Shown here in pieces: positions 1,495 through 18,996 of a stretch of 23,451 nucleotides of DNA. The notes beneath the pieces were generated by a model. It was not told the DNA's origin, searched no databases, and saw only the letters and a list, made by a program, of their open reading frames with translations. Position 1 is the first letter of the stretch. Every line of letters begins with the position of its first letter. This DNA comes from a virus, in IMG/VR virus record IMGVR_UViG_3300044645_001446, positions 1 through 23,451 of that record; one strand, written 5' to 3'. Made by a program: the position numbers and the translations under genes.

Positions 1495-1793
1495 CCCCAC
1501 AACCCCGATGGCATGCCCTCACGCCAGTCAACCTCACTAACACGATCACGCTCGCGCTCATGCTCACGCATCAAGTCAATAACAGGGCTCATAAGGAACA
1601 AGCCGACGATCACGTCCGGCGCCGTTGCACACAACTGCGGCATGCTCACCGGCTTTGCGTACCCAATGTCAATGACGTTCAAGCCCGCATGACCGATCGG
1701 CCACACCTGCAGATAGAAGCCGTGCTCATCAAATACTTCGTCGTAGCCGCATAGCGCCTCGAGCCCGCACCTACGCTGCTGAATACGGCTCAT
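1491..1793 (-). CDS. Hypothetical protein, 100 residues
   Basis: No family is recognised. The sequence has a mixed alpha/beta look with a hydrophobic core segment (APDVIVGLFLMSPVIDLM, about residues 58-75) followed by a strongly charged helix with HERERDR. The hydrophobic stretch is short and interrupted by Asp and Pro, so a membrane span is unlikely. The ATG overlaps the stop of the IS110-like gene upstream (ATGA), and the stop overlaps the next ATG. The product is translationally coupled to both. Confidence 0.6.
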   Translation of the reverse strand: MSRIQQRRCGLEALCGYDEVFDEHGFYLQVWPIGHAGLNVIDIGYAKPVSMPQLCATAPDVIVGLFLMSPVIDLMREHERERDRVSEVDWREGMPSGLWG

Positions 1794-2533
1794 TGCGTAG
1801 CCATCAAAGACGCAGCCGGCATAGCAACAACAAAGTTGCCCTGATCACCAACAACCTGCAACTTTCGCTCGTTGTAAAGGTCCTTCAACAACTCCTTCAT
1901 CATCCTGCGCTTAGCCATCGCGTGCTTATGCCCATCACTTAACCGCGACCCAGCAAGCGCCGGCTTACCTGACGGCCCGCAACGCTTGCAATCAACAACA
2001 TGCACACGATCGGCATACTGCGCACGGCACTCGTCGTACAACACCCTGTACGGGCTCGCGTCATGCAAATCGGTTGCAACAGCCTTGACGCAGCTCTCGG
2101 TAATCAGCCAGGCACGCATTTTCGCGTCGTGATTCCAAGCTGCCCGCTCACCCCTTTGCTTACGTTGATCTGGCGCAAGGCCGCAGTACTTCCACAGCTC
2201 AGCAGGCCCACGTCGATAACGCTCCTCAGCCTCGTTGTAAATCGGGTCACCGAGCGCGGCAAGCAAACGCCCCATCTGCTTGAAGCCCAGGCCCTTAGTG
2301 CGCTTTACGAAGTCACCTAGCGGATGAGTTTTCATTGCGCGTTCTAGCTGCCCAACAGCATGCTTTTCTAACGCTTGAAGCTGCGTTGCCGCCGCCTGCC
2401 ACGCTTCGATCGGTACGCCTTCTGCTTCCAAGCTACGCACGCGATTATCTTGCGCGATACGTAGCCCTTCAATGTCGTTTACGAACTCGGCCCACAGTTG
2501 CAAACCTGCTTGTGCTGCGTTGTAGTCACTCAT
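1790..2533 (-). CDS. IS110-family transposase C-terminal-domain-like protein
   Basis: The 247 residues split into a helical, probably coiled-coil first third (about 1-75) and a region resembling the C-terminal domain of IS110/IS116 transposases (Transposase_20). The helix-hairpin-helix-like part is GLGFKQMGRLLAALGDP (81-97). It is followed by LWKYCGLAPDQRKQRG (113-128), SPYRVLYDECRAQY (160-173) and GHKHAMAKRRMMKELLKDLY (201-220). A CxxC insertion lies at 182-185. The usual N-terminal DEDD nuclease domain is absent, and the gene is shorter than typical IS110 transposases of over 300 residues. Where active relatives have a Ser-Gly in the Tnp domain, this protein appears to read Arg-Gly, so catalysis may be lost. 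A start with an AAAGGGGCAG ribosome site overlaps the repeat gene upstream. It could be a domesticated DNA- or RNA-binding protein. Confidence 0.7.
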   Translation of the reverse strand: MSDYNAAQAGLQLWAEFVNDIEGLRIAQDNRVRSLEAEGVPIEAWQAAATQLQALEKHAVGQLERAMKTHPLGDFVKRTKGLGFKQMGRLLAALGDPIYNEAEERYRRGPAELWKYCGLAPDQRKQRGERAAWNHDAKMRAWLITESCVKAVATDLHDASPYRVLYDECRAQYADRVHVVDCKRCGPSGKPALAGSRLSDGHKHAMAKRRMMKELLKDLYNERKLQVVGDQGNFVVAMPAASLMATQ

Positions 2534-2964
2534 TGCTGCCCCTTTATTTGGTTATCAAAAGTGTTGCCGCAAGCGATTTCACCGTGGTCATCGCAATCGG
2601 TCTGGCTTGCGGCAAAATGGTTGCTACGAGCGTTGGCGGCCTGGTTATCGTGCAAACCTTGACTCGTAGCAAGATGGTTCACGCAGGCGTCCCAACTATG
2701 GTTATCGCTTGCACCGTGGCCTGCGCGAAGATTGAGCCCGACGGCGGGAGGTAAATCGCAAACGCATGAGGCGTGGCCGTCGGGAAGATGGTTGCTACGA
2801 GCGATACAGCGCTGGTTATCGGCCGTAAATTGGCTCGTAGCAAGATGGTTGCCGGAAGCGTTGGTGTGTTGGTCATCGACATCAGACTGGCTTCCGGCAA
2901 AATGAACGGCAACACGCCGCGACGCACGATCTATGGATCTCGATCCTGATTTGGTCGCGGTCAT
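2530..2964 (-). CDS. Repeat protein encoded by palindromic 57-bp units
   Basis: This is a 144-residue ORF with ATGA overlaps at both ends, so it sits in the operon like a normal gene. After about 20 basic residues it consists of six consecutive 19-residue repeats with consensus A-x-S-Q-x3-D-N-Q-x3-A-x-S-N-H-L, then a truncated end (DNQIKGQQ). Repeat 3 keeps its length but loses most of the consensus (for example LPPAV). No family is recognised, and there is no signal peptide or membrane span. Each repeat is encoded by a DNA palindrome, so the open frame may be secondary to a nucleic-acid function, or both may be selected. The Asp, Asn, Gln and His positions could bind metal or nucleic acid, but that is speculation. 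Confidence 0.6.
   Translation of the reverse strand: MTATKSGSRSIDRASRRVAVHFAGSQSDVDDQHTNASGNHLATSQFTADNQRCIARSNHLPDGHASCVCDLPPAVGLNLRAGHGASDNHSWDACVNHLATSQGLHDNQAANARSNHFAASQTDCDDHGEIACGNTFDNQIKGQQ
2564..2900 (-). repeat. Six tandem 57-bp hairpin units with covarying stems
   Basis: Units occupy 2849-2900, 2792-2843, 2735-2786, 2678-2729, 2621-2672 and 2564-2615, separated by 5-nt linkers (usually CCATC or CCATT on the minus strand). Each is an 11-nt arm, a 30-nt loop and the complementary 11-nt arm. In five units the loop is 11 nt, an 8-nt core CGATAACC or CGATGACC, then 11 nt. The loop begins with CA and the part after the core begins with A and ends with C. Stems are perfect in three units. 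In two the only deviation becomes G-U in a minus-strand RNA, and in one (2735-2786) nine of eleven pairs hold and the core is displaced 6 nt. Arm sequences differ between units while pairing is kept, so structure rather than sequence is conserved. Confidence 0.9.
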
Positions 2965-3377
2965 GCTGCCTCGCTTGATTGGGCGCGCAACTCACCAACA
3001 GTGCAGCAACCCGAAACTTGAAGATCACGCAACAACACAACAAACCCATCACGCTTCGCTGCACTAGCCGCAATCTGACCGTCATACTCCGCAACAATCA
3101 TTGCCAAATCATCAGCAGTGCAATCAGCAAGAAACTTGTTGACAAACGGCGCAACGACAGGAAACGCAGCCCACTTACTCTTGCCAGCCGCACCTTGTGA
3201 CGGCGCAGACACATTGCGCACGTTTCGCTGCGACCACTTCACACGCTCAGTCATCGCCCACAACAAAAAATCGTCATCAACCAACGGGGCAAGCATTAGT
3301 GCTCGAGCAGCAACCACAGCGGGCTCCGACTCATCGCCCCTAAGCATAATGGTGCCAATTGCATCATCGACGTTCAT
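2961..3377 (-). CDS. Hypothetical protein, 138 residues
   Basis: No family is recognised. The ATG at 3377 overlaps the stop of the Rpf-like gene (ATGA) and is preferred to an in-frame extension that would run through that gene. The N-terminal half contains acidic helices (DESEPAVVAARALMLAPL, then DDDFLLWAMTERVKW). The middle is polar with a GAAGKSKW segment, which is not a Walker A motif because it lacks the GxxxxGK spacing. The C-terminal third is helical and ends in CCTVGELRAQ. The stop overlaps the start of the hairpin-repeat gene, so the two are translationally coupled. Confidence 0.6.
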   Translation of the reverse strand: MNVDDAIGTIMLRGDESEPAVVAARALMLAPLVDDDFLLWAMTERVKWSQRNVRNVSAPSQGAAGKSKWAAFPVVAPFVNKFLADCTADDLAMIVAEYDGQIAASAAKRDGFVVLLRDLQVSGCCTVGELRAQSSEAA

Positions 3378-3730
3378 CGGATACGGCTCCAACAAGCCCA
3401 CGCCGAATACCCGACGCGCCGAGCAACGATATTTGCGACCTGCATCTGCTGCCGCCACGTCGCCTGCCCAGCATTGTTAGGAAAGCCGCGAGGCTTAAAG
3501 CCATCCCAAGTCGCATGATAAAAGCCCAAGCCGCCCTGATACGTCGGCCCAGGATGACTCCAACGAACACCCCAAGCGCCGCGCCCTGGCTGCTCACAGC
3601 GCCCCATCTTCACCCAAAGCTGCCAATGCGCTGGCATCTTCGCGTCAGCACTACCGGCCATTAGCGCCGCGGCAAGCAGCCCCAACACAAACGCCTTCAT
3701 TGCCCGTTGCCCAATCAAAACACTACTCAT
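3374..3730 (-). CDS. Secreted Rpf-like transglycosylase
   Basis: From the ATG at 3730 the product is 118 residues. Residues 11-30 form a signal peptide (MKAFVLGLLAAALMAGSADA, likely cleaved after ADA). Residues 36-118 match the transglycosylase-like domain of resuscitation-promoting factors: W, then GRCEQPG (the Glu at 46 is the expected catalytic acid), YQGGLGFYHATWDGF, and the closing QQMQVANIVARRVGYSAW. Such domains cut the glycan strand of peptidoglycan and are typical of Actinobacteria and their phages. An AGGGGA ribosome site precedes two adjacent ATGs (3733 and 3730), and the ATG at 3700 is a third option. It is encoded far from the lysis block, so it may act on the wall from outside, either in wall remodelling during infection or as an accessory lysin. 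Confidence 0.8.
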   Translation of the reverse strand: MSSVLIGQRAMKAFVLGLLAAALMAGSADAKMPAHWQLWVKMGRCEQPGRGAWGVRWSHPGPTYQGGLGFYHATWDGFKPRGFPNNAGQATWRQQMQVANIVARRVGYSAWACWSRIR

Positions 3731-3842
3731 CATCAGTTCCCCTGTCGTATTCGTATTGCAGTTCAAGTTCACGCTCATGCGCTTCATCAGCATCATCAGC
3801 CGCCGCAATCGACGCGGCCTCATCCCAATCGTCGTCAGTCAT
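3723..3842 (-). CDS. Very acidic 39-residue protein
   Basis: This short ORF bridges the HNH gene and the Rpf-like gene, overlapping each by 8 bases. A GGGAAGG ribosome site lies just before its ATG. The product begins MTDDDWDEAASIAAADDADE and ends DRGTDDE, with roughly half its residues Asp, Glu or Ala. A strongly negative small protein could mimic DNA or bind a basic partner, but no family is recognised. It could also be a simple coupling peptide that lets ribosomes reach the next gene. Confidence 0.5.
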   Translation of the reverse strand: MTDDDWDEAASIAAADDADEAHERELELQYEYDRGTDDE

Positions 3843-4140
3843 TACGCCTTCCCGTTATTTGGCGCCTCGCTGCCTCAATGCCCCCAGCAACCGTGACGGC
3901 GCTCAGCTGCTCGGCAAGACTCAAATACGGGAGCAAGTCGAGCTCATGGGAATCAAACTTGTTGTGACACTCCCTACACAATTCAACAATCGCGTCAGCG
4001 TGCTCCCCACCATTCGGAGCCATCGACCTCGGAATGACATGCGCAGCATCAATCGGCGGCGAACCAGTCCGACACACACGGCACCTGCCAGCATCCGTCA
4101 CCTTTTGCCTAGCTTCAGCCCAATTACGATGCCTCGCCAT
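3835..4140 (-). CDS. HNH endonuclease
   Basis: This is a 101-residue HNH-family protein. Zinc-binding Cys pairs are C20-x2-C23 and C55-x2-C58. The catalytic beta-beta-alpha core is IDAAHVIPRS (H34) followed by DAIVELCRECHNKFD (H59, N60). The ATG at 4140 overlaps the upstream stop and gives the usual compact length; an earlier ATG, at 4155, is less likely. Free-standing HNH proteins in phages may be homing enzymes, or help terminase when they sit near packaging genes. This one lies in the early region among small genes, so its role is open. Confidence 0.85.
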   Translation of the reverse strand: MARHRNWAEARQKVTDAGRCRVCRTGSPPIDAAHVIPRSMAPNGGEHADAIVELCRECHNKFDSHELDLLPYLSLAEQLSAVTVAGGIEAARRQITGRRND

Positions 4141-4432
4141 CAGACACCCCCTCATCAGCCCTCGTCAACAACTGTTCGGCAGTGACGGCCGACACAGGCA
4201 CCCCACCAGCCCGCGCCAACCGCCACGCCCTCAACCGAACTACCTCCCACCGCGTCTGACCCGTGACGCGCGCGGCAAGTTCTGTCGCATGCGCAAACTC
4301 AAAGCCCTGCACGTCAGCGTCAACCATCCCAACAGCTGGCGGATACTTGCTTACTCTACAGTCCAGGCCATCGCAAACGACCCAGCGTTCTTGCACCGGC
4401 TTATCCTTACGTTCAGCTTTCTTACGACGCAT
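4124..4432 (-). CDS. Hypothetical protein, 102 residues
   Basis: The true start is taken as the ATG at 4432, inside the end of the IHF-like gene, because the upstream frame extension would overlap that gene much further. The N-terminus is very basic (MRRKKAERKDK). A middle part with WVVCDGLDCRVSKYPPAVG carries two Cys six residues apart, and the C-terminal half is helical (TRWEVVRLRAWRLARAG, then VTAEQLLTRADEG). The helical part could be an HTH. No family is recognised. Confidence 0.6.
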   Translation of the reverse strand: MRRKKAERKDKPVQERWVVCDGLDCRVSKYPPAVGMVDADVQGFEFAHATELAARVTGQTRWEVVRLRAWRLARAGGVPVSAVTAEQLLTRADEGVSDGEAS

Positions 4433-16294: not shown

Positions 16295-18996
16295 CGCGTA
16301 GCCAACTGCCAACCCAATTGACGAGCAAGCAGCATTGGATCATCAGCCGCAGCACCAACCGCGTTAACTGTGATGTTCATGCCGGCGCCGCCGCCCATAC
16401 GACTAGTGCGCGTCCCCGAATGAACCTTCCCACCAACAATCAACTCAGGACCAGTCTCCCCAACAAGCGTAAGCTGCCCTGGCGTCAACATGCCACCGGA
16501 CACCTTGTTAGCAAACGGATGCCCCTTCAAAGCAGGTTTCGGTCGAGCAGCATACGCCTGAGCTTGCGTGACACCAAACATTTTTCCGTAATCGCTAGCA
16601 AGATGCGGCCTGCTTGCTGGTCGTGGGTTCGTACTAAGCAGCTGCGCACGAATTCTTTGCGCCAACGAAGGACCGCCACCACCAGCAACCGGCGCACCAG
16701 CCTGCGTTGTGCCACCAATAATTGCGGCAGCTTCACCAACACCAGCCGTAACGCTCGCAGGCAACCCAGGAACTGAAACGCCCGACCCTTGCATTGCGGC
16801 CGTCAGGCTTGCAAAGAACGCCGTGACCGTGCCACCGGCCATGAATGCGTCAAGCGCGCGCTGCATGCCGCCAGCAAACGTGTTAGCAAACGCGGTTGCC
16901 GCAGCCTCACTACTAGCCTCAATTTCATTCTCATTAAGCTGCGCAAGCTGATCCTGCAACTCAGCAAGATACGCGGGCCCATACCGAGCATCAAGGGCAG
17001 CCTTTTCGCTTTGTAGCGCGTCAATCGCTTCAAGGTTGCCCTGCTTACGTGCCTGAGCAATACGAGCATCAAGACGGGCAGCATCACGCTGAAACCTAGC
17101 CTGAACGCGCGGATCAGCAGCCTCAGCCTGAGCCCGCGAAATAGCAGACCCTAAGCCGCCTCGAGCAACACCAGTTTCACGCGCAGCCCTCGCAGCACGC
17201 GCAGCATTAACCGGCGCCATAATGCGATCAAGCTCAGCCGTCCGAATCGTGTCCCTAATACCCTCAATGAAACCCTTAAGAGTTTCGCCAGCCGCAGCTC
17301 GAGCCTGCTTAGCTGCCAGACGACGCTCAAGCGCTGCAAGCTCATTTGCAGCCTTCTCCCTAGCCTTCTTAGTCTTCGCAGCCGCTACTTTTGCTTGCGC
17401 AGCCAACAATGCTTGCTGATCCCTCAACGCGCCCGCCGACGAGCCAGCACCCTGATTCAACAACACATTTTGCGCCCCTACATTCAACCTCTCGGGCGTC
17501 CGACCCACAACAGCCTTAATCTTCTTCAACGCAGCAAGACCAGGCAGGTTCCCAAGCGCAGACCCAACCCGCGAAATCGCATTCACCAAAGCATCAACAC
17601 CAGCCTTAGCGGCACTGAACGCCGAAACAACAACGTCACGCATCCTTCCTGCCGCAGACCCAACACCCTTAAACGATGAACGCGCAGCACCAAGCAAAGC
17701 CCGAGAAGCACCCGTAAGCGCGTTGACGCGTTGCGACACAAACGTCAAAACCGGCCCAACCAATCGCAATGACGCAACGATCGCAAACGCAATAGCCTTA
17801 AACAGCGGCACAAGGACCGGCTTCAACGCAACAAACAACCGTGAGATTGAGCGGGCAACACGGCCCGCGGCAGCAAGCGCCGCTGGCAACTCACGCTTCG
17901 CCGCGTCACCAACACTCTTAAAGATCGGGCCAACGGTCGCACCAATCTGAGCAACAAGCCTTTGCAACGACGCGCTGCGCTTATATGCCAAAAAGAACGC
18001 TGCACCAACGGCAGCAATGCCAATGGCAACCGCAGCAATCGCAGCAGTATAAGGATTGCTAAACACGGCGGCAAGCAAGCTCCCAATGCTTGTCAACGAG
18101 CCCGCAATCTTACCGGCAGCAAGCACAGCAGCCAAACCAGCAAGCGCGAGGGCAATGCCCTTGATGTTGTCGCGGAACACGCCACCGACACCAGTGCCAG
18201 CACGCAGACCCTCAACAAAGCCCATTATGGCAATTGCGCCACGATTCAACACAGGCACCAAGTACCCGCCGATTGTCTCGAGCAGGTTTTGGTACGTGAC
18301 ACGTAGCCTGTCAAGTGGTGTTGCCTGCGCGGCCGCCGACCCACCAAACTCGGTTGCAAGCTCCTTCAAAATTAGTTTCTGCGCGTCAGCCGTCTTACCT
18401 GTCTCAACGAGCTTCTTAATGACCTCGGTTTGGTCAGCACTGAAGTTCACACCAACACGCCTTAGTGCCGTAATGCCCCTAATAGGGTCCTGCAACGCTT
18501 TACCAACCTGAATGCTTGCGCCCTTCAAGCTCGTGCCCGTAGCCGCGCTCAAATCAAGTACGGCGGCGGTAGCGGCAGGGAACGTGTCCTTACCAATCTT
18601 CGTGAACGTCAGCAGCAGGTTTTCGGCCGACTGAATGGCCTCATCATCAACCGCTGTCTTCTCACTCAACGCCTGAGCAAGATCGCCAACGGCTTTAGCT
18701 GTCAACCCTGCAGCGCCCTTCGTTGACTTGAGCACCGCGTTTGTTTGCCGGCCAACCTTAATGCTTTCCTGCTGCTCACGAACCGAACCTTGAATGACAG
18801 TGATTAAGCCCTGGGCGCCAATGTACGCGCCAGCAAGTCCAGCAACGGAGCGCGTAACGCTTCTAAACGGATTGCCTTTAACGTTCTTGGTTGAGCGATT
18901 AAACTTGTCAGTTTCGCGCGTAACACGCTTCAACGCAGCCTGAGCCTTCGCTGCATCAACAAGAATGTCGATACGTGCCTGAATTGACTTAGCCAT
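16291..18996 (-). CDS. Tape measure protein
   Basis: This is the longest gene in the window, 901 residues. It has the family layout: a helical N-terminus (LVDAAKAQAALKRVTRETDK), a prophage tail-length region, and hydrophobic Ala/Gly-rich segments around residues 275-340 (IALALAGLAAVLAAGKIAGS, TAAIAAVAIGIAAVGAAFFL). A Lys/Ala coiled coil is followed by a C-terminal GTRTSRMGGGAGMNITVNAV. It sets tail length and is ejected with DNA. By the usual 0.15 nm per residue, a tail of about 135 nm is expected. It starts in the end of the chaperone frame (ATGGCTAA). No lysozyme or peptidase motif is evident. Confidence 0.95.
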   Translation of the reverse strand: MAKSIQARIDILVDAAKAQAALKRVTRETDKFNRSTKNVKGNPFRSVTRSVAGLAGAYIGAQGLITVIQGSVREQQESIKVGRQTNAVLKSTKGAAGLTAKAVGDLAQALSEKTAVDDEAIQSAENLLLTFTKIGKDTFPAATAAVLDLSAATGTSLKGASIQVGKALQDPIRGITALRRVGVNFSADQTEVIKKLVETGKTADAQKLILKELATEFGGSAAAQATPLDRLRVTYQNLLETIGGYLVPVLNRGAIAIMGFVEGLRAGTGVGGVFRDNIKGIALALAGLAAVLAAGKIAGSLTSIGSLLAAVFSNPYTAAIAAVAIGIAAVGAAFFLAYKRSASLQRLVAQIGATVGPIFKSVGDAAKRELPAALAAAGRVARSISRLFVALKPVLVPLFKAIAFAIVASLRLVGPVLTFVSQRVNALTGASRALLGAARSSFKGVGSAAGRMRDVVVSAFSAAKAGVDALVNAISRVGSALGNLPGLAALKKIKAVVGRTPERLNVGAQNVLLNQGAGSSAGALRDQQALLAAQAKVAAAKTKKAREKAANELAALERRLAAKQARAAAGETLKGFIEGIRDTIRTAELDRIMAPVNAARAARAARETGVARGGLGSAISRAQAEAADPRVQARFQRDAARLDARIAQARKQGNLEAIDALQSEKAALDARYGPAYLAELQDQLAQLNENEIEASSEAAATAFANTFAGGMQRALDAFMAGGTVTAFFASLTAAMQGSGVSVPGLPASVTAGVGEAAAIIGGTTQAGAPVAGGGGPSLAQRIRAQLLSTNPRPASRPHLASDYGKMFGVTQAQAYAARPKPALKGHPFANKVSGGMLTPGQLTLVGETGPELIVGGKVHSGTRTSRMGGGAGMNITVNAVGAAADDPMLLARQLGWQLATR

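Follow-up and report, generated by a model that had tools for sequence, protein, structure and literature searches.

The hairpin array and its adjoining gene

The stretch of viral DNA analysed (IMG/VR record IMGVR_UViG_3300044645_001446, positions 1 to 23,451; referred to as the window) contains on its minus strand a tandem array of RNA hairpins followed directly downstream (3') by tasA, a gene for a protein with a Nop domain (Table 1). Both are assigned below to the TIGR-Tas systems, recently described CRISPR-like systems for RNA-guided DNA targeting (Faure et al. 2025, PMC12045711, cited here for its main text).

Six hairpin units of 57 bp, as claimed in an original prediction made from the window alone, are present at 2564-2905 when the minus strand is read, each composed of an 11-nt arm, a 30-nt loop, a second 11-nt arm and a 5-nt linker. 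The count of six stood for this part of the array, but a seventh unit (unit 0) was found upstream of the other six and is the first of the array. In the minus-strand orientation, a unit reads as an arm ending in C, CA, a 9-nt spacer, CG-ATRA-CCA, a second 9-nt spacer, CG, and the second arm. The last C of the arm together with CA forms box C (CCA or TCA), CG forms box D, and both are in register in every unit; the loop repeat CG-NNNN-CCA is box D plus box C, and in each CG the G is able to pair with the leading C of the CCA next to it. The predicted fixed core at the loop centre was recovered as CGATRACCA in five loops. Unit 3 has a different loop repeat; it kept 9 of 11 stem pairs, having lost the two outermost ones, and its 9-9-9 spacing is intact. 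Both spacers were 9 nt long in 7/7 units of the window and in 269/294 units overall. Each of the six units folded better than its own dinucleotide shuffles (z = -2.3 to -6.4), and the predicted G-U pairs of the minus-strand RNA were located in units 4 and 5, one in each.

A strict scan for motif plus stem (stem, [CT]CA, 8-11 nt, CG, 2-14 nt, CCA, 8-11 nt, CG, stem of at least 7 bp) gave six minus-strand matches in the window, namely five of the original six units and unit 0, and no plus-strand match; the array is far from what chance would produce. No Rfam family matched at the gathering threshold, and a direct DNA search of the array against phage records returned nothing meaningful.

Table 1. 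Coordinates of the guide units, genes and open frame at the array locus of the window
Feature	Position	Strand	Description
Guide unit 0	2917-2960	-	7-bp stem, CCA, spacer A AATCAGGAT, CGAGATCCA, spacer B TAGATCGTG, CG; strict scan
Guide unit 1	2849-2900	-	spacers GTCTGATGT / ACACACCAA; fold z -4.3
Guide unit 2	2792-2843	-	spacers ATTTACGGC / GCGCTGTAT; fold z -6.4
Guide unit 3, degenerate	2735-2786	-	loop repeat CGTTTGCGA; spacers CGCCTCATG / TTTACCTCC; fold z -2.3
Guide unit 4	2678-2729	-	one G-U stem pair; spacers CGGTGCAAG / TAGTTGGGA; fold z -2.3
Guide unit 5	2621-2672	-	box C TCA, closing pair U-G; spacers AGGTTTGCA / GGCCGCCAA; fold z -4.2
Guide unit 6	2564-2615	-	spacers GACCGATTG / CGGTGAAAT; fold z -3.5
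tasA	1790-2533	-	247-aa Nop-domain Tas protein without nuclease domain (predicted); NCBIfam, profile and fold match
Open frame	2530-2964	-	144 codons, through the whole array; 4-bp overlaps with both neighbouring genes
Accessory gene	2961-3458	-	165 aa, phrog_4604; directly upstream of the array; profile search

The Tas protein

Searches with the tasA product identified NCBIfam model NF052498 (TIGR_Tas_endo, 'TIGR-Tas system RNA-guided endonuclease') with 180 bits at a cutoff of 100 (E = 5e-53). The top match of a phmmer search against the PDB was TasH (E = 0.0066), and a profile of 45 family members matched TasR (9MTY) at E = 6e-29 and TasH at E = 6e-17. In Pfam, the protein had no match even at E = 10. 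The AlphaFold2 model, with a predicted local distance difference test score (pLDDT) of 92.3, was aligned to TasR with Z = 19.5 over 188 residues (2.3 Å) and to TasH with Z = 18.7, compared with approximately 13 for the IS110 recombinases ISCro4 and IS621 and 7.1 for Nop5. The values for TasR, TasH, ISCro4 and IS621 were well above those for unrelated helical proteins (approximately 10 or less). The model starts at the coiled coil of TasR, and the alignment begins at TasR residue 108. Because the protein begins where this coiled coil begins, the model indicates that it is of the TasA type and has no nuclease domain.

Strand specificity and covariation of the stems

The strict scan of 71 loci (approximately 0.45 Mb) yielded 300 matches on the tas strand, none on the opposite strand (one locus stored in reverse orientation being set aside) and approximately 3 in shuffled sequence; the loci are mutually related, and these and the following match counts do not represent independent events. 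As MAFFT misaligned unit 3, a motif-only test in relatives took the place of a formal count of pairs in the six window units. Without any stem requirement, the box pattern was found 250 times on the tas strand versus 5 times on the opposite strand in 69 loci. Of the eight stem positions of these motif-only matches, 86-94% were paired, with GC, CG, AT, TA and G-U all occurring, and the relatives' stems contained 78 G-U versus 50 A-C cells. On account of the strand bias, the occurrence of all pair types and the excess of G-U, we conclude that the opposite strand is not functional and that compensatory change maintains the stems. The predicted selection on the minus-strand RNA is thereby supported. 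The condition under which the original prediction was to be refuted, retention of the 19-residue peptide with loss of stem pairing, turned out reversed: relatives retained stems and boxes and did not retain the peptide.

Relatives and variability of the spacers

Relatives of tas were encoded in 56 viral loci and in 7 loci from bacterial genomes. In the phage collection, 83 records contained tas, with 76 from phages of Mycobacterium, 5 of Gordonia, 1 of Rhodococcus and 1 of Arthrobacter. Among 28 arrays of cluster A mycobacteriophages, slot 1 contained 9 and slot 4 contained 15 different spacer pairs within an unchanged stem, which bears out the guide-like scaffold with variable flanks that had been proposed for the window. 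When the 28 cluster A loci were compared with BigPaolini, identities were 67-94% for the array, 97-100% for the start of tas and 87-100% for the end of the upstream gene. The spacer alleles were reshuffled among these phages, a pattern suggestive of guide exchange at the stems.

In slot 4 of cluster A phages, one spacer A (TATCTCCGG) was found paired with several spacer B sequences; the guide halves are therefore separately exchangeable. The third guide hairpin of cluster A arrays (L003 2791-2860 and equivalents) is followed by GCTTTTCTT, so that the stem of this hairpin may also act as an intrinsic terminator inside the array.

Assignment to the stem-loop TIGR class

According to the main text of PMC12045711, TIGR guide RNAs contain box C CCA, a two-base box D and 9-nt spacers, and the loop repeat has a short A-rich loop enclosed by a G-C pair. 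TasR has UG as box D, and the boxes diverge together; in stem-loop arrays, variable yet palindromic stems replace the edge repeats. In the window, units follow one another in tandem, with stems that vary yet are consistently palindromic in place of edge repeats; a Nop-domain Tas protein is encoded beside the array, and the 9-nt spacers occur with box C CCA and box D CG. In the mycobacteriophage slots, spacers changed and boxes and stems stayed. We assign the feature with a probability of approximately 0.94 to the stem-loop guide arrays of TIGR-TasA systems, here in an actinobacterial phage; family, anatomy, strand, covariation, spacer variability and the conserved partner gene (see below) were observed directly. 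The original prediction could name no RNA or repeat class of this layout, a statement that has to be withdrawn in view of the TIGR stem-loop class of PMC12045711 and the adjoining Tas gene. The class has been known since 2025; the locus represents an actinophage variant of this class in which a partner gene is conserved and the arrays lie in coding frames. A CRISPR array, in which identical repeats of 25-36 nt alternate with spacers of similar size in the company of cas genes, was rejected: the repeats are non-identical, a tandem repeat was not detected, and the effector is Tas and not the product of cas genes.

Compared with the TIGR-TasA array from a Peromyscus gut metagenome, as described by Faure et al. 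(2025, PMC12045711, main text), the window has box D CG and a uniform loop repeat CG-ATRA-CCA; its array forms one regular 57-bp run located upstream and inside an open frame, and is preceded by the conserved phrog_4604 partner gene. With the dual-repeat TasR and TasH systems (9MTY, 21KL) it shares the fold of the Nop domain, box C CCA, 9-nt spacers and a loop repeat in which a G-C pair closes a short A-rich loop; unlike these, it has hairpin stems in place of short edge repeats, units of 57 instead of 36 nt, and a Tas protein that, according to its model, has no nuclease domain. The IS110 bridge-RNA recombinases (IS621, ISCro4) resemble it in their Nop-like RNA-binding fold and a split guide flanked by helices, but the modelled window protein has no DEDD catalytic domain and is accompanied by many guides instead of one bridge RNA. 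Similarity to box C/D small nucleolar ribonucleoproteins (Nop5) consists of a distant fold relationship (Z = 7.1) and split guides between box motifs; no counterpart of fibrillarin, L7Ae or the k-turn turned up, none having been searched for specifically, and DNA rather than RNA would be the expected target here.

The partner gene and the open frame through the array

A homologue of the accessory gene (approximately 155-170 aa) was identified by profile search immediately upstream of the array and tas in 67/69 loci. All aligned members (42/42) matched phrog_4604, and in the phage collection 75 mycobacteriophage records contained the accessory gene versus 76 with tas. The accessory protein gave no confident match in Pfam, NCBIfam or PDB, and its AlphaFold2 model was of low confidence and had no fold match in a Foldseek search.

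The 144-codon frame through the window array is possibly a translated read-through and not a conserved protein. In a prophage of M. abscessus, the array is an annotated open reading frame, in Gordonia phages the annotated tas gene takes in the array as its N-terminal portion, and in many relatives the arrays are open frames continuous with tas. Among 36 arrays of relatives (the window's own frame being excluded), 26 were open in the tas frame versus 15.7 expected from controls with a fixed scaffold and shuffled spacer letters (P ~1.5e-5). Furthermore, 33 guide units of relatives were located within tas coding sequences; in most loci with units at this site and parseable flanking motifs, the protein loop following ELWxYCG was extended from 8-20 to approximately 45-64 residues. 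The partner gene, the coding-frame arrays, the guides nested in tas and the Omega-like cassette insertion (see below) are absent from the main text of PMC12045711, the supplement of which may show some of them.

A small gene for an HNH endonuclease (PHROGs HNH families) is located at 3835-4155 on the minus strand of the window, two genes upstream of the array, and is probably unrelated to the Tas effector.

The cassette as a discrete insertion

A published description of phage Omega reports an IS110-like transposon and, relative to LittleE and Courthouse, a 5-bp CACTG duplication. In a cluster J locus (L029), we identified a 2.2-kb insertion (1944-4115) relative to Courthouse that consists of guide units, the accessory gene, tas and further units, with CAGTG (CACTG reversed) at both junctions. 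The whole cassette is thus a discrete insertion in this phage, which we count in favour of a TIGR-Tas system. The locus, the record name of which is unconfirmed, fits the published description of Omega including the CACTG duplication; this suggests that the published 'IS110-like transposon' of Omega is a complete TIGR-Tas cassette.

Courthouse and LittleE, which are without the cassette at this site, each retain one solitary guide unit with an 11-bp stem (L123 640 and L124 640). The position of these units matches that of the L029 unit at 4276 just outside the cassette, with different spacers. The solitary unit is either an orphan guide or a deletion scar.

Alternative explanations and target searches

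The published interpretation of the Omega element, together with the recovered insertion relative to Courthouse, leads to an alternative in which the gene encodes the transposase of an IS110-like transposon and the hairpins are its bridge RNA guide or end structures. The mycobacteriophage homologues are indeed called 'transposase' in PHROGs and many GenBank records, and the IS110 recombinases share the fold of the window protein (Z = 13). However, a protein of 247 aa that is aligned from TasR residue 108 leaves no room for an N-terminal DEDD/RuvC domain, TasR and TasH fitted better than the IS110 recombinases, and NCBIfam assigned the protein to TIGR-Tas. Moreover, there are seven similar single-loop units in place of a single bridge RNA that has a target loop and a donor loop, and Pfam Transposase_20 matched only 3/45 family members, weakly. 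We consider an IS110-like transposon very improbable.

Even less credit is given to a repeat-bearing protein gene, in which selection would act on the 144-aa frame and the hairpins would arise incidentally from a 19-residue repeat. The window frame is indeed open and overlaps each neighbouring gene by 4 bp, and relatives avoid stop codons in the tas frame, but most of the relatives' units are 53-69 nt apart without codon periodicity, and no gene is annotated over the array region in cluster A phages and Rhodococcus phage Peregrin. Residues change while the stems stay paired, and boxes and strand are conserved whereas the peptide is not, which is the pattern that would refute this explanation. 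The regular 57-bp repeat with its conserved core and inverted repeats would also be compatible with DNA-level binding sites of a phage protein, such as origin iterons or operators. The arms are, however, 30 nt apart and free to change in sequence as long as pairing holds; together with the excess of G-U over A-C on one strand, the hypervariable spacers and the tight linkage to tas, this makes binding sites the least probable of the three explanations.

The target searches weigh against a TIGR-TasA guide array. The 8-nt 3' overhang and C-5 rule that have been published (PMC12045711, main text) led us to a target strand that begins with spacer A and continues with spacer B in reverse complement. 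Site counts equalled those of mispaired-spacer controls for the window units in their own 28.9-kb record and for cluster A units in five cluster A genomes, and 218 spacer pairs gave no excess over mispaired ones in approximately 0.68 Mb that included the tas loci of near relatives. For 11 pairs (6 from mycobacteriophages, 5 from the window), no exact 18-mer was present in 50,697 phage records, from which a positive-control 18-mer was recovered. Searches of 198 mycobacterial genomes and of IMG/VR found no site for one widespread cluster A pair, and three window pairs had 2, 3 and 1 matches to unrelated viruses in IMG/VR, as predicted by chance. With no target found beyond chance, the biological role and targets of the array are a matter of guesswork. 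For the same lack of targets beyond chance, self-regulation via perfect targets is unlikely; our default guess is that the targets reside in unsampled mobile elements. A match of 17/18 between a unit of locus L064 and the tas gene of another phage was within the mispaired background and was rejected.

Proposed mechanism

Beyond the sequence level, the mechanism proposed for the TIGR-TasA system follows the TasA and TasR work in the main text of PMC12045711, from which guide processing, ribonucleoprotein formation and targeting are adopted by analogy. One minus-strand message would comprise the accessory gene, the array of seven hairpins and tasA, and the hairpins would be cut out at the linkers. 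A TasA dimer would then bind one hairpin via two box C/box D pairs, with the stem base and the CG-ATRA-CCA loop serving as equivalent anchors, and the two 9-nt spacers would each pair with a different strand of a single 18-bp DNA site. Because TasA has no predicted nuclease, it would probably bind and bend DNA under guidance without cutting it, and thereby silence or block competing mobile DNA. In members with units inside tas, excision of guides would use up the message, giving a possible autoregulatory loop.

We tentatively suggest, at somewhat less than even odds, that the actinophage systems represent a distinct three-part type made up of the phrog_4604 partner, a translated array and a tas gene that often nests guides, and that this type is autoregulated, mobile and guide-exchanging. 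Guides and effector would then compete on one transcript, with guide excision destroying the tas message, and the cassette would move between phages and swap guides at conserved stems.

Significance and further observations

In the discovery paper, TIGR loci were mostly metagenomic and targets were hard to identify (PMC12045711, main text). The present assignment places intact stem-loop TIGR-TasA loci, previously labelled 'transposase' or 'hypothetical', in >70 sequenced phages growing on Mycobacterium smegmatis, of which close relatives differ in their guides. Guide targets thus become testable in mycobacteriophages, where knock-outs, RNA sequencing and competition assays are straightforward. 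The conserved partner gene and the guide units nested in coding sequence are additions to the described systems.

In some cluster A phages, a Cas4-like exonuclease is encoded beside tas as a separate gene. In Gordonia phage Spooky (L005 1850-2000), more hairpin units are seen upstream of the accessory gene and overlap the final part of the gene before it. A tas gene from Nocardia (L071, approximately 1860-2990) is broken at the LWAYC motif by an intein-like insert (CVPRGERVSTPSGAIPIEDLKVGDRVF...). Single motif-plus-stem matches far from tas were observed at 18853 (minus strand) in SarFire and at 51131 (minus strand) in BPBiebs31; these are possible orphan guide units or chance matches.
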